The position numbers and the translations under genes are program-made. The notes under the pieces were generated by a model. The model was not told where the DNA came from, did not search any database, and was given only the letters and a program-made list of their open reading frames with translations. Below are positions 1 to 26,513 of a stretch of DNA of 64,000 nucleotides, piece after piece (the stretch's first letter is position 1; each line of letters starts with the position of its first letter). This stretch comes from Membranihabitans marinus (GTDB taxonomy: Bacteria > Bacteroidota > Bacteroidia > Chitinophagales > Saprospiraceae), in contig NZ_JAJQYA010000011.1 of assembly GCF_021729155.1 (NCBI RefSeq), forward strand, positions 62,001 to 126,000. The letters run 5' to 3'.

Positions 1-1884
1 AATACTGAAAACATCAACAACTTGAGATTGAATACCAAAGTGGCTTTTAAACCATTTAAAGGTCTGGAAGTATCGGGATCTTATCAATTCCAAAACAATC
101 ATTCATTGGTGAGCAATTACATGAACGAAGAGACTTGGTATGTGAGAAACTCCGTCAATGAAAATGCACGTCCAGATGGCAGTTTCCCAGTACCTGCCGG
201 AGGTATGTTGTACGAAAGAAAATCTGATTTTATATCTCATGACGCTAGGTTTCAAGCGACCTATGATTTGATTTTCGGCGACCATGAAATCCGAGCCTTA
301 GGGGGTATGGAGATTAAAAAAGACGAATATGAAAGTATGCCTTACGGATACTATGGATATGACCCACAAGCATTGACCCAAATTACTGGTTTGAACTTTC
401 AAGATGATATCAATCCCAAATTGACTGGTGACAATGAATGGAGAGGTAGTATTCATCCTATACCTACAGTACCCAAAACCAGTGTGAGAATTACTGGGCG
501 AGACGATCGATTTGTGAGTTATTATGGAAATGGAATATATACCTACTTAGGAAAATACGATATTACCGGTAGTATTAGACTCGATCAAACCAATCTTTAC
601 GGAAGATCAGCTTCTTATCGAGAATTGCCTCAGTGGTCTGTTGGTGCCGGTTGGACCATCAGTGACGAAGCATTTTTTAACCTCCCAGTTGTCGATTATT
701 TGAGAGCTCGTATATCTTATGGTTGGAATGGTCACGTAGACAAAAATGCCAGTCCATACATCAATGGTACTCCTTGGGTAGATCCAGTGAATCAATTGCA
801 ATACGCTGCAGTCTTAAGTACACCAAATCCAGGATTGACTTGGGAAAAAACATCTAATTACAATCTCGGTTTTGATATGGCTTTGCTTAGAAACCGCTTG
901 GAATTGGGAATTGAATTCTACAATAAAAAATCTAAAGACGTACTGACCAATATCAAAGTAAATCCTACTTATGGGTTTTATTACGATGCAGCGACCTTGA
1001 ATACGGGTAACATTACCAACAAAGGAGTTGAATGGGATCTATCAGCATTGGTCATCGATAGAAAAGTAAAATGGCAAACGCGTTTGAATTATTCATACAA
1101 CAAAAACGTAGTGGATAATGTCAAAACATCTTCTAGCAATATGGCTACCTATACAGCATTGGCATACTTCAATCCAGTGGCCGGACAACCTAGAGACTAT
1201 ATTGCCGTAGCCGAATGGGCTGGATTTAGCGATGAAGGTTTGCCACAGGTAATCTACCAAGGTGAGGTAACCAGTGTTACCGATATCAATTACAGTTCAT
1301 CAGATATCGATGACTTGTTTAAATTCGTCGGACAGAGAAGCCCTAAGCATTTTGGTTCTTGGAGCAATACAGTTTCTTTTGCCAGATTTGAACTTACTGC
1401 TAGAGTATTGTATAGTTTTGGTCACAAATTCTTTAAAGACACTCCTCCGAGAAGTCTTTTGTACAATTATCAGAGTTTTAGAAATTTCTTTACGTTTAAT
1501 ACTGATTTATTAGTGGATAGATGGCAGTCACCTGCTGACAATGAAACAGCTTCTATGTATTCTTTGGATACTAGAGTGAGCAATTATTTGACAACATTGA
1601 CCAATGATTATTTATCTGAATACAACACCAATTCTATATTGGATGCAGGTAATGTAAGACTTCAGAATGTAACCTTGGGATACAACTTGCCACGCAATTT
1701 CATTAAAGGAGTAAAAAATGTGAAGATCCAAGTTCAAGCTAGAGACTTAGGTCCTATCTTCTTGGCCAATAAAGAAGGCGTCGATCCTCAGTTTCCGAAG
1801 TATAGTTCATCCCTTTATTCTGCTTACTACAATGTGTTGAGGGACAGACCTACTTATGCGGTTAATTTAAAAATCGGACTTTAA
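1..1884 (+). CDS. SusC/RagA-family TonB-linked outer membrane protein (3' part)
   Basis: Open at the left edge: the frame is already open at base 1, so the N-terminal signal, the carboxypeptidase-like domain and the plug lie outside the window. What is visible, about 627 residues, is a beta-barrel C-terminal half rich in alternating aromatic/polar strands, with the family-typical stretches on arriving structures (GWTISDEAFF, LRARISYGWNGH) and asymmetric loops full of Asn/Tyr. It ends on a strand (YAVNLKIGL), as outer-membrane barrels do. SusC proteins import oligosaccharides, peptides or other ligands across the outer membrane with TonB energy. The SusD partner starts 34 bp downstream. Substrate cannot be told from this fragment. 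Confidence 0.93.
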   Translation, partial: NTENINNLRLNTKVAFKPFKGLEVSGSYQFQNNHSLVSNYMNEETWYVRNSVNENARPDGSFPVPAGGMLYERKSDFISHDARFQATYDLIFGDHEIRALGGMEIKKDEYESMPYGYYGYDPQALTQITGLNFQDDINPKLTGDNEWRGSIHPIPTVPKTSVRITGRDDRFVSYYGNGIYTYLGKYDITGSIRLDQTNLYGRSASYRELPQWSVGAGWTISDEAFFNLPVVDYLRARISYGWNGHVDKNASPYINGTPWVDPVNQLQYAAVLSTPNPGLTWEKTSNYNLGFDMALLRNRLELGIEFYNKKSKDVLTNIKVNPTYGFYYDAATLNTGNITNKGVEWDLSALVIDRKVKWQTRLNYSYNKNVVDNVKTSSSNMATYTALAYFNPVAGQPRDYIAVAEWAGFSDEGLPQVIYQGEVTSVTDINYSSSDIDDLFKFVGQRSPKHFGSWSNTVSFARFELTARVLYSFGHKFFKDTPPRSLLYNYQSFRNFFTFNTDLLVDRWQSPADNETASMYSLDTRVSNYLTTLTNDYLSEYNTNSILDAGNVRLQNVTLGYNLPRNFIKGVKNVKIQVQARDLGPIFLANKEGVDPQFPKYSSSLYSAYYNVLRDRPTYAVNLKIGL

Positions 1885-23793: not shown

Positions 23794-23894
23794 GAGTTTA
23801 TGATTTTGATACCTCAAGATATATTTTTTTTTTGAATGCGATAATTTGTTTAGCTTTCAATTCCAAATCAAATTTATAGTAACAGGAATTTAAT

Positions 23895-23902
23895 TATCTT
23901 TG
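23895..23902 (+). promoter_or_regulatory. Putative -7 box of dnaX
   Basis: TATCTTTG matches TAnnTTTG and lies 11 bp before the dnaX ATG. A weak TTTA stands about 18 bp upstream in place of TTTG. The message would have a very short leader. Confidence 0.5.
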
Positions 23903-23913
23903 CGTGATATATT

Positions 23914-25074
23914 ATGAATAAATTTATTGTTTCCGCTAGAAAGTATAGACCACTGCAATTTGAGGATGTTGTAGGGCAAGGCCATATTACTCAAACTTTG
24001 AAGAATGCTATCAAACAAGAGAAGTTGGCTCATGCCTTTTTGTTTTGTGGTCCTCGAGGTGTAGGTAAAACTACAGCTGCTCGGATTCTTGCTCAGACCA
24101 TAAATTGTCAAAATATATTGCCCAATGTAGAGCCCTGTGGTCAGTGTGAGCCCTGTGTGTCTTTTCAAAAAAACCATTCAATGAATATCATTGAATTGGA
24201 TGCGGCTTCAAATAATTCAGTGGACAATATTCGAAACTTAATAGAACAAGTCCGAGTACCCCCTGGCGATGGCAAGTATAAATTGTATATTATAGATGAG
24301 GTGCACATGTTGTCTCAGAGTGCCTTCAATGCCTTTTTGAAGACCTTGGAAGAGCCTCCCTCATATGCTATATTTATCTTGGCCACTACGGAGAAGCATA
24401 AAATATTGCCAACCATTCTCTCGCGTTGTCAAATCTATGATTTTAAGCGTATTCAGATAGCTGATATAGTAAGTCATTTGGAAAAAATATGCAATAGTGA
24501 AGGTTTGTCCTTTGAAGTAGAAGCGCTAAATACAATAGCCGTTAAGGCCGATGGAGCTTTGCGTGACGCTCTGTCTATATTTGATCGTATTGTGTCTTTT
24601 GCCGATGGCAATCTGACTTATGAAGCTGTCATTAGTCAGTTAAATATATTGGATCACGATTATTATTTTCAAGTAATTGATCAGTTGATCCTCGGAGATT
24701 TAGCTGCCACATATATCTTGTTCGATACCATCGTACAACGAGGTTTTGATCCCCACGTATTTTTGATGGGCTTGCAGGAACACCTTAGACAATTGTTAAT
24801 GATACAATTGAACTCCACTTCTTCATTGGTCGAAGTTGGCCCAGAATTGAAGGCCAAATACGAAGCCCAAGCTCAGGTGGCTCCTCGCGATTTTGTGTTG
24901 ACACTATTAGATTTGGCCAATGCCTGTGACGTCGATTATCGACACGCTCAAAATCAGCGATTGCACGTGGAAGTTTGTTTAATGAAAATGGCTTATTTCA
25001 ATAATAAACATTCTCTTCAAACAGAACAATCAGATGGGGTTGAAGTAAAAAAAAAATTAAATCCAGTCAGTTAG
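23914..25074 (+). CDS. dnaX: DNA polymerase III gamma/tau subunit, gamma-form frame
   Basis: 386 residues in the zero frame. Clamp-loader AAA+ ATPase: KYRPLQFEDVVGQ, Walker A GPRGVGKT (46-53), zinc-binding Cys65/75/78/81, Walker B LYIIDEVHML, sensor 1 ATTEKHKILPTILSRCQ and the gamma domain III collar. The frame stops at 25072-25074, only six codons after a run of ten A (25047-25056). The continuation, with tau-type domains, lies in the -1 frame, so this frame encodes a gamma-like product of about normal length and the combined frame a 609-residue tau. Gamma loads the sliding clamp; tau also binds the polymerase and helicase. See the separate entries for the slip site and the tau tail. Confidence 0.95.
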   Translation: MNKFIVSARKYRPLQFEDVVGQGHITQTLKNAIKQEKLAHAFLFCGPRGVGKTTAARILAQTINCQNILPNVEPCGQCEPCVSFQKNHSMNIIELDAASNNSVDNIRNLIEQVRVPPGDGKYKLYIIDEVHMLSQSAFNAFLKTLEEPPSYAIFILATTEKHKILPTILSRCQIYDFKRIQIADIVSHLEKICNSEGLSFEVEALNTIAVKADGALRDALSIFDRIVSFADGNLTYEAVISQLNILDHDYYFQVIDQLILGDLAATYILFDTIVQRGFDPHVFLMGLQEHLRQLLMIQLNSTSSLVEVGPELKAKYEAQAQVAPRDFVLTLLDLANACDVDYRHAQNQRLHVEVCLMKMAYFNNKHSLQTEQSDGVEVKKKLNPVS

Positions 25075-25742
25075 CCAGTACTCCAACACCTGTTGAAAAT
25101 ACTGATAATGTGACCCAAGAAAATAGACCAAGCTACTCTGGTGATCGGGAAACAACTCCGTCTACTACACCAGCTCAGAATAGGGCCAATGCCGATAAAA
25201 AACCAGAGCGTGAAACTCCTCAAAGACAACCTCCTTCTGGGGACAATCAAACAAAACCAAGTACTTCGTCTAAAAGTAAATCCAAAAAGAAATTGCCACA
25301 ATTGGGCAATTTAAGTGCTCTAAAAGCCGACCTTGAAAAAGAGGCCAATCAAAAAGAGAAGGATTTAGACGCCGAAGTATTACAGAAAAAAGTGATAGAG
25401 GTCTGGAAAAACTTTAGAGAAAATCATCCTTCGCCCTCGCTTTCTGTTTTTATGAAAGATGCCAAATTGATCTTTAATGATATGAACTTAAAGGTCGTGG
25501 TTACTTCGCAATTGGCTCGATCATCGATAGTGGAACAAAGGGATTTGTTTGAAGAAATTCGATCGACGGCCAGTCCCCATATTTTGGAAATTGAATTTGA
25601 AATAGATTCTACATCCGCGGCATCTACTGTGCACGAGGTAAGCTTGATTACTACCCAAGATAAATACAATGCATTGCTAGCTAAAAATTCTACTTTGGCA
25701 AAATTAGTCCAAAAATTGAATCTTAAAGTTGATAACGACTAA
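25044..25742 (+). CDS. dnaX: Tau-specific C-terminal part of DnaX, -1 frame
   Basis: This frame is open from 25044 (a TGA stop sits just before it at 25041) to the stop at 25740-25742. It reads SKKKIKSSQLASTPTPVEN across the A run, then a Ser/Thr/Pro/Lys-rich linker (to about 25310), then a folded domain of about 140 residues containing LEKEANQKEKDLDAE, VIEVWKNFRENHPSP and a VTSQLARSSIVEQ / LIFNDMNLKV block like the C-terminal domain of Bacteroidota DnaX. A GTG at 25110 could nominally start a 210-residue protein, but the linker-in-the-middle architecture fits a frameshift extension of dnaX better than an independent gene. Confidence 0.85.
   Translation, partial: SKKKIKSSQLASTPTPVENTDNVTQENRPSYSGDRETTPSTTPAQNRANADKKPERETPQRQPPSGDNQTKPSTSSKSKSKKKLPQLGNLSALKADLEKEANQKEKDLDAEVLQKKVIEVWKNFRENHPSPSLSVFMKDAKLIFNDMNLKVVVTSQLARSSIVEQRDLFEEIRSTASPHILEIEFEIDSTSAASTVHEVSLITTQDKYNALLAKNSTLAKLVQKLNLKVDND
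25047..25056 (+). promoter_or_regulatory. A10 slippage / -1 frameshift site in dnaX
   Basis: Ten consecutive A, read GTA AAA AAA AAA TTA in the zero frame. A -1 shift, or one extra A added by transcriptional slippage, gives GTA AAA AAA AAA ATT AAA and joins the gamma and tau frames. The switch has to happen between the -1-frame stop at 25041 and the zero-frame stop at 25072, and the A run fills the middle of that window. A GGGG at 25036-25039 lies eight bases upstream; I see no strong downstream hairpin. dnaX of Thermus uses an A9 run and E. coli A6G for the same purpose. A homopolymer sequencing error is the competing explanation. Confidence 0.75.
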
Positions 25743-25790
25743 AGCTTAATGGCATATTAAATGATTACCCAAAAAACTCGAAATTAAATT

Positions 25791-26513
25791 ATGTCATTCT
25801 TTGCTTTGATTAATGTTCTCACTTCTCTTGTATTCTTCGCAGAACAACCGTCGATATATTTAGGGTCATTGTTGGTGGAACAACCGGTGACTACGCTGAC
25901 CAATATTGTTGTTGCGGCTTATTGTTTCTATATATATGTTCGACTTTCGTCCACTAATACTGGAGATTCAAGTTATTCCTTATGGCGGTCATATTTTATG
26001 TTAATGGGATGGTCTACTTTGCTCGGAGGTATTATTACCCACGGTTTTATGTATGCTTTTGATGAATTGTGGAAGTTGCCCGGATGGTATTTAAGCATGT
26101 TGGCATCTAGTATTTTGGCCTATATTGTACTTAGATTCAATAAGAATATTTTGCCGGATTCAGTGTACAATATTATGTTGGTGGTATTAATCCTTGAAAC
26201 CATGGCTGTAGCCTATATGACAGCTGCGAATATAAAGTTTTTATATGTGGCCATTCATTCTGGGTTTGCTATGTTGATATACGTATTGGGCATTAGTATT
26301 CAGGGGTATCGATCCGATATTGCTCGAAGTATTCATATTCAGCTGATGCTGTCCGTGTTCGCCACCTTTTTAGCTTCAGTTTTTTTCGCAGCCCAGTGGG
26401 GGATTAGTATTTGGTTTAACCACGTAGATATGTCTCATATTTTCATGTATTTGGGCATTTATTTTCTCTATAAATCTGCTAGTAAAATGTTGCAACCATC
26501 TCCCTTTGTGTAA
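25791..26513 (+). CDS. Seven-helix membrane protein of unknown function
   Basis: 240 residues with about seven hydrophobic helices. The N-terminal EQPVTTLTNIVVAAYC and the C-terminal WFNHVDMSHIFMYLGIYFLYK (His-rich, between the last two helices) resemble a conserved Bacteroidota membrane family (DUF6962-like); histidines in such positions also occur in hydrolases of the ceramidase-type fold, but the catalytic set is not complete here, so no activity is claimed. It starts 49 bp after the dnaX tau stop on the same strand and is convergent with mfd. Confidence 0.55.
   Translation: MSFFALINVLTSLVFFAEQPSIYLGSLLVEQPVTTLTNIVVAAYCFYIYVRLSSTNTGDSSYSLWRSYFMLMGWSTLLGGIITHGFMYAFDELWKLPGWYLSMLASSILAYIVLRFNKNILPDSVYNIMLVVLILETMAVAYMTAANIKFLYVAIHSGFAMLIYVLGISIQGYRSDIARSIHIQLMLSVFATFLASVFFAAQWGISIWFNHVDMSHIFMYLGIYFLYKSASKMLQPSPFV

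Follow-up and report, generated by a model that had tools for sequence, protein, structure and literature searches.

The dnaX gene of Membranihabitans marinus is split, within the 64,000-nt stretch of DNA analyzed here (the window), by an uninterrupted run of ten A, and we propose that this run serves for programmed transcriptional slippage, by which both gamma and tau would be made, as in Thermus dnaX. On comparative grounds, we give this reading a probability of about 0.85. Indeed, the same place in the linker holds 9 to 12 uninterrupted A in 212 of the 273 non-redundant dnaX genes sampled from the phylum Bacteroidota, and stops in both frames other than that of tau follow the run far more often than in shuffled sequences. 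Beyond this genome, we also consider it probable, if with somewhat less confidence, that slippage-driven dnaX expression is old and phylum-wide in Bacteroidota, this phylum being taken broadly, the coded frame being near neutral, with at least 32 switches, and both products being kept.

As sequenced, the 0 frame of dnaX (Table 1) has a gamma part that matches the Pfam models DNA_pol3_delta2, DNAX_ATPase_lid and DNA_pol3_gamma3 and scores 434.5 bits against TIGR02397 (dnaX_nterm, cut-off 250). The run, located about 62% along the gene, consists in the assembled sequence of exactly ten A followed by TTA, and the crossover window between the gamma and tau frames extends from 25044 to 25071. When the run length was varied in silico, eleven A joined the frames into a protein of 609 aa, ten A led to a stop 5 codons past the run and nine A to a stop after 0.3 codon. 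These results bear out the first-pass annotation, made from the sequence alone, which had described dnaX as split by ten A, with ten A giving gamma, eleven a 609-residue tau and nine an immediate stop; the run, the frames, the gamma stop and the upstream stop in the tau-tail frame are all where it had placed them. Regarding the tail, the 614-residue gamma/tau model NF011531 matches its part 25110-25739 through model residues 413-614 (E 3.7e-8, 32.6 bits, below the cut-off of 685 that this model sets for the whole protein), and no Pfam model matches this part. The tail shares 40% and 36% identity with the tau tails of two genomes of the same genus, the synonymous sites being at or near saturation in these comparisons. 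An Rfam search of 23800-26000, with E up to 1, returned no match.

Table 1. Features of the dnaX locus (positions in the window).
Feature	Position	Strand	Basis
dnaX (clamp-loader gamma/tau gene)	23914..25742	+	ORFs, family models
Gamma (386 aa), encoded by the sequenced 0 frame: AAA+ ATPase of the clamp loader, domains I-III and short Lys tail	23914..25074	+	Pfam, NCBIfam
TGA in the tau-tail frame, upstream bound of the crossover window	25041..25043	+	sequence
A10 run, proposed slippage site, codons GTA AAA AAA AAA	25047..25056	+	sequence; 212/273 phylum genes with 9-12 A at the equivalent place
tau-specific tail (linker and C-terminal part), frame open if eleven A; stop TAA 25740-25742	25057..25742	+	
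TAA reached by nine-A transcripts (n-1 frame)	25058..25060	+	sequence
Possible imperfect hairpin, weak, 9 nt past the run	25066..25114	+	z -1.97 (101 nt), z -3.43 (65 nt)
Gamma stop (TAG) of the 0 frame, reached by ten-A transcripts	25072..25074	+	sequence

In the window, as in Thermus-type dnaX, the linker that follows domain III carries nine A or more in a row, and stops lie close by in both non-tau frames (at 0.3 and 5.0 codons), whereas the single uninterrupted tau frame of that type, found in 155 of the 212 run-bearing genes, is broken in this gamma-coded gene. Because its tau frame is interrupted, the window was classed with the two-ORF dnaX genes, and as in these, a gamma ORF is followed by a tau tail at a DNA-level -1 shift, with a poly-A run at the junction. 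Another homopolymer, a T10 run at 23824-23833, lies in the short stretch just 5' of dnaX that separates it from the divergent neighbour ORF. The 5.4-Mb genome holds 21 distinct A or T runs of at least ten (29 overlapping matches), including these two; among the other 19, one sense-A and four sense-T runs lie wholly within mechanically called ORFs of 80 aa or more. The former, L291, is the sole other sense A10 inside an ORF (complement of 62..1123), which by eye we take to be lpxK, and there one A less or more would lead to a stop after 11 or 13 residues. The four sense U runs (T10; L293, L304, L296 and L301), two of them in ORFs of more than 350 aa and two in short ones (90 and 147 aa), might slip too.

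To place this run in a wider context, dnaX was sought in 60 relatives, 99 phylum genomes and 70 class genomes (overlapping draws, each including the genome of M. marinus), and further loci were taken from named species genomes (the best 80 of 592 loci); this sample is non-random and one species may recur if its sequences differ. There was no dnaX match at 1e-40 in two of the 99 phylum genomes and two of the 70 class genomes, and the relatives G010 and G042, seven of 97 phylum matches and the class genome G168 were left out of the survey. Removal of 10 contig-end loci and 3 exact duplicates gave the 273 genes, which were classed by the longest A run within a 240-nt stretch around the linker. 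This longest run measured 2-7 in 61 genes, 8 in none, 9 in 61, 10 in 138, 11 in 12 and 12 in one, and in the 212 run-bearing genes it started between codons 350 and 407 (median 375). In four control stretches of 240 nt from the same genes, runs of at least nine were found in 0/272, 0/273, 3/273 and 1/270 cases and runs of eight in 4, 1, 13 and 11 genes, while the longest other A run within the same gene was below nine in 209 of the 212. The conserved run of nine to eleven A that the first-pass annotation had suggested looking for in close relatives is present, at nine to twelve A, in most of the phylum genes sampled.

At the level of families, 71 of the 92 sampled include a gene with the run, 18 do not and three were seen only as cut loci. 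Run-bearing genes come from, among others, Pedobacter and Chitinophaga, both with tau-coded genes (defined below), Mucilaginibacter, Dyadobacter, Hymenobacter, Rufibacter, Terrimonas, Aureispira and a Chryseobacterium gleum MAG, and the run is absent from all nine loci labelled Bacteroidaceae, Bacteroides, Prevotella or Prevotellaceae. As 61 of the 273 genes do without it, the run is not essential to the phylum. Among the 56 no-run genes with an open tau frame, no uniform replacement was found: a slip heptamer with a -1 stop within 8 codons occurs in 15, and a heptamer from a list of common slip sites in 7. L149 and L218, which have no run at the site, carry A10 at codons 456 and 453, about 80 codons further 3', each followed in both other frames by a stop no more than 4 codons on, and these runs are candidate displaced slippage sites. 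L187 (codon 382) and L159 (codon 368) have only A7, yet A_AAA_AAG or A_AAA_AAC with a -1 stop 3 codons on, so that E. coli-like ribosomal shifting in place of slippage is possible in these two genes. Two further no-run genes, L154 and L178, have an A8 far from the site, and L206 (G177, a 0.5-Mb genome; dnaX GC 18%) has two in-frame TAA in its dnaX match and no run of eight A at the site.

The run is found in two arrangements. In 155 of the 212 genes it lies inside an open tau frame (tau-coded genes), and in the 57 others, including the window, tau is out of frame (gamma-coded genes) and would be read with one A more than the sequenced length n in 54 (n+1) or one A fewer in three (n-1; L022, L077 and L174). 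L141, whose contig ends 115 codons into the tail, was counted as gamma-coded at n+1 and kept as gamma in the gene tree, and was left out of the shuffle test described below, which thus has 56 gamma-coded genes. Gamma-coded genes are spread over 23 families (46 genes), to which 11 species-named loci are to be added, and they account for 12 of 15 loci in one family and 6 of 8 in another. The named close kin of the window's gene (L207, L208 and L210) point to Saprospiraceae as its probable family. Within the family to which the window belongs, the survey counts 29 tau-coded and four gamma-coded loci (the window included), two with no run and three that are cut. The two genomes of the same genus, L003 (A10) and L004 (A9), are both tau-coded: close relatives with a single frame and no A run, which the first-pass annotation held to be fatal to its proposal, were thus not met with in this genus, where the frame is single and the run is kept.

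On a FastTree gene tree built from the first 340 codons, run excluded and L059 and L206 left out, 211 genes require at least 32 changes between tau-coded and gamma-coded, compared with a mean of 50 and a minimum of 43 over 100 shuffles of the labels. For presence of the run, 271 genes require at least 25 changes (mean 54 and minimum 49 after shuffling). Both counts are subject to inflation by the errors of a single-gene tree. As judged from this tree, the coded frame tracks ancestry loosely and the run itself more closely. The tails of gamma-coded genes were compared in pairs, 28 of which were found and 25 listed; dN/dS was 0.04-0.30 in the 22 listed pairs with a finite value, the pairs not being independent and several tails being near synonymous saturation, and 0.01-0.15 for the gamma part in the 25 listed pairs. 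By this measure, purifying selection acts on the tails in gamma-coded genes. Because of this constraint, we infer that gamma-coded genomes do make protein from the tail despite the lack of a continuous frame, and hence that the frame would be changed at the level of the RNA or of the ribosome.

Stops around the site are the evidence that most distinguishes these two levels. We scored stops within 6 codons of the run and, for comparison, shuffled the codons that follow it 200 times. Among the 155 tau-coded genes, the n+1 frame is closed in 154 (shuffles: mean 74, maximum 95), the n-1 frame in 126 (mean 41, maximum 58) and both frames in 126 (mean 17, maximum 27); in gamma-coded genes, both other frames are closed in 46 of 56 (mean 6, maximum 12). 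At the same place in no-run genes, both frames are closed in 5 of 56. Slippage by RNA polymerase, which gives access to all frames, needs both stops, whereas a -1 ribosomal shift needs one, and it is mainly for this reason that transcriptional slippage was chosen. Two other features support it: the run shows a length threshold at nine, whereas a ribosomal slip needs the heptamer only, and gamma-coded genes depart from the tau frame in both directions (54 at n+1 and three at n-1). Mixed shift directions among orthologues are given as a sign of transcriptional realignment by Antonov et al. (2013; PMC3711429). As counterpoints, all-A runs also hold the ribosomal heptamer A_AAA_AAA, and the excess of 54 over three would be expected equally from -1 ribosomal shifting and from slippage biased towards insertion.

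Several other explanations have to be weighed, of which the one that the first-pass annotation regarded as its main rival is a homopolymer error in sequencing or assembly, the true run being eleven A and the window being tau-coded like its relatives of the same genus. The prevalence of tau-coded genes in these two genomes and in the window's own family (29 against 4) speaks for such an error. Against it, 56 other genes are gamma-coded, forming the majority of loci in two families, and the larger genes of the window that we looked at by eye are unbroken. We consider it unlikely. Moreover, it could decide at most between ten and eleven A in this genome, since the conserved site and the off-frame stops hold in either case; as an explanation of the whole it was rejected, the run being at the site in so many genes. 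Much less probable still is phase variation at the DNA level, by which replication slippage would toggle single cells between a gamma-only and a tau state. An A10 run is mutable and the coded frame has changed many times on the tree, but tau is expected to be essential for polymerase coupling and a stable gamma-only state should therefore be lethal, and with stops in both other frames there would be no further product to switch to. Finally, the run could be a side effect of a linker rich in Lys, the genome being A+T-rich, and play no part in expression, since it encodes Lys-Lys-Lys in the tau frame and linkers tolerate low complexity. The run is however found in all three codon phases among the 212 genes, and pure A9-A10 occurs in GC-rich genes that favour AAG: with a GC of at least 0.55, AAG exceeds AAA in the gamma part of 22 of 23 run-bearing genes, and the gamma parts of L132, L142 and L177 have no AAA against 14, 14 and 10 AAG. 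None of the 29 other Lys-Lys-Lys stretches in the 273 genes contains A9, and neither the absence of runs of eight at the site nor the stops in both frames would be expected of a lysine linker. Together with the control stretches, the AAG-favouring genes and these 29 stretches led us to reject this explanation, which we hold to be the least probable of all.

A further alternative is programmed -1 ribosomal frameshifting on A_AAA_AAA, which would yield tau here and gamma in tau-coded relatives, and which the first-pass annotation had offered alongside transcriptional slippage. This heptamer is present in every run, and tau lies at n+1 in 54 of the 57 gamma-coded genes. Only one tRNA-Lys, with the anticodon UUU, was seen in the genome (30 of 34 tRNA matches examined), which is in keeping with a ribosomal shift, and because it is the single one seen, the two-tRNA argument used for Thermus does not apply here. 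Stimulatory elements were examined as well. In the 50 nt past the run, the mean fold z was -0.26, compared with -0.12, -0.10, -0.32 and -0.02 in four controls (p 0.07, 0.12, 0.75 and 0.02), and values below -2 were reached by 9.9% of the stretches at the site and by 5.2-9.9% in the controls; with 65-nt stretches, the site had a mean z of -0.34 and 11.3% below -2, and two controls -0.18 and 6.1%, and -0.12 and 5.2%. The 212 genes thus show a mild excess and no consistent RNA structure common to the set. Similarly, SD-like motifs 3-20 nt 5' of the run are found in 23 of 212 genes, compared with 1, 11, 13 and 11 of 212 in the controls, an excess that stays short of a set-wide element. The window is outside these 23 and has no SD-like element upstream of its run; it also lacks the E. 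coli heptamer A_AAA_AAG, the run being followed by TTA, and its possible hairpin is absent from its sisters L003 and L004, which have different folds. Ribosomal stimulators may nevertheless have been added in some members. A ribosomal shift has no need for the n-1 stop, found in 126 of 155 tau-coded genes against a shuffle mean of 41, nor for nine A or more, and leaves the three n-1 genes unaccounted for. We consider such a shift unlikely, and of the two mechanisms initially proposed it is transcriptional slippage that is favoured by the stops in both frames, the threshold at nine and the lack of a conserved structure; the more general proposal, that programmed slippage yields gamma and tau, receives strong comparative support from the phylum-wide run and the off-frame stops.

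In the transcriptional slippage that we favour, RNA polymerase would slip on the run and produce dnaX mRNAs in which it may be longer or shorter than in the template. For the genome of M. marinus, translation would yield gamma, ending a few codons past the run, from mRNAs with 10 A (and also from those with 9 or 12), and full-length tau from those with 11 A (or 14, or 8). Both proteins would hence be obtained from one gene, and the DNA frame would be of little weight, allowing lineages to drift between the tau-coded and gamma-coded states. We infer RNA polymerase to be the slipping agent, and likewise the product ratio and the use of both proteins in the clamp loader. If the proposal is true, the frequencies of the coded frames (155 at n, 54 at n+1 and three at n-1) would represent a slippage spectrum, in which the addition of one A is common and its loss rare. 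Gamma-coded genomes would be expected to show a short dnaX followed by an orphan tail, easily misread as a pseudogene or an assembly error. The sequences also suggest that gamma is wanted in this phylum, the run being maintained by selection, in both arrangements, in 71 of the 92 families sampled. It has long been asked if gamma is truly made and selected for in many bacteria or is an oddity of a few, and this can now be tested in easily grown strains.

Regarding known systems, the dnaX gene of E. coli gives the same two products through a -1 programmed ribosomal frameshift, which relies on A_AAA_AAG, an SD-like element and a stem-loop. The gene is thus the same, but the window has neither AAAAAAG nor an SD-like element nor a stem-loop shared with its sisters, and stops in both frames are enriched around its type of site. 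According to a 2012 review, most bacteria keep no dnaX frameshift signature and may make no gamma (PMC3290774); slippage across Bacteroidota, if true, would contradict this view of bacteria outside enterobacteria and Thermus. In the open-access literature, most subscription papers being beyond the scope of our search, we found no report of phylum-wide dnaX slippage in Bacteroidota with repeated frame switching.

The dnaX gene of Thermus slips on A9, is tau-coded and has stops in both other frames (PMC1088944; PMC5009743). With Thermus thermophilus the window shares a linker run of nine A or more, the stops in both frames and, as proposed here, the production of gamma and tau from one gene. Thermus is tau-coded with the run about seven-eighths along the gene, whereas the window is gamma-coded with an earlier run, and slippage in Thermus is experimental, whereas the case made for Bacteroidota is comparative. 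Closer still are the 17 two-ORF dnaX genes from 12 genera, nine of them with ten A, for which transcriptional realignment was inferred, as reported by Antonov et al. (2013; PMC3711429); their text names three of the genes, all from Chlorobi, with nine, eight and seven A. The window has in common with the two-ORF type gamma in the 0 frame, tau by a DNA-level -1 shift and ten A. Judging by its sequence, it joins a type already described in 2013, and its site recurs across the phylum instead of being peculiar to this genome; on both points the first-pass annotation is to be corrected. A scan for frame transitions in DNA, such as that behind the two-ORF set, would presumably miss tau-coded genes, which make up 155 of the 212 run-bearing genes here. 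The slippage device of dnaX is hence known from other bacteria, and it is its reach across a whole phylum that appears wider than has been described.
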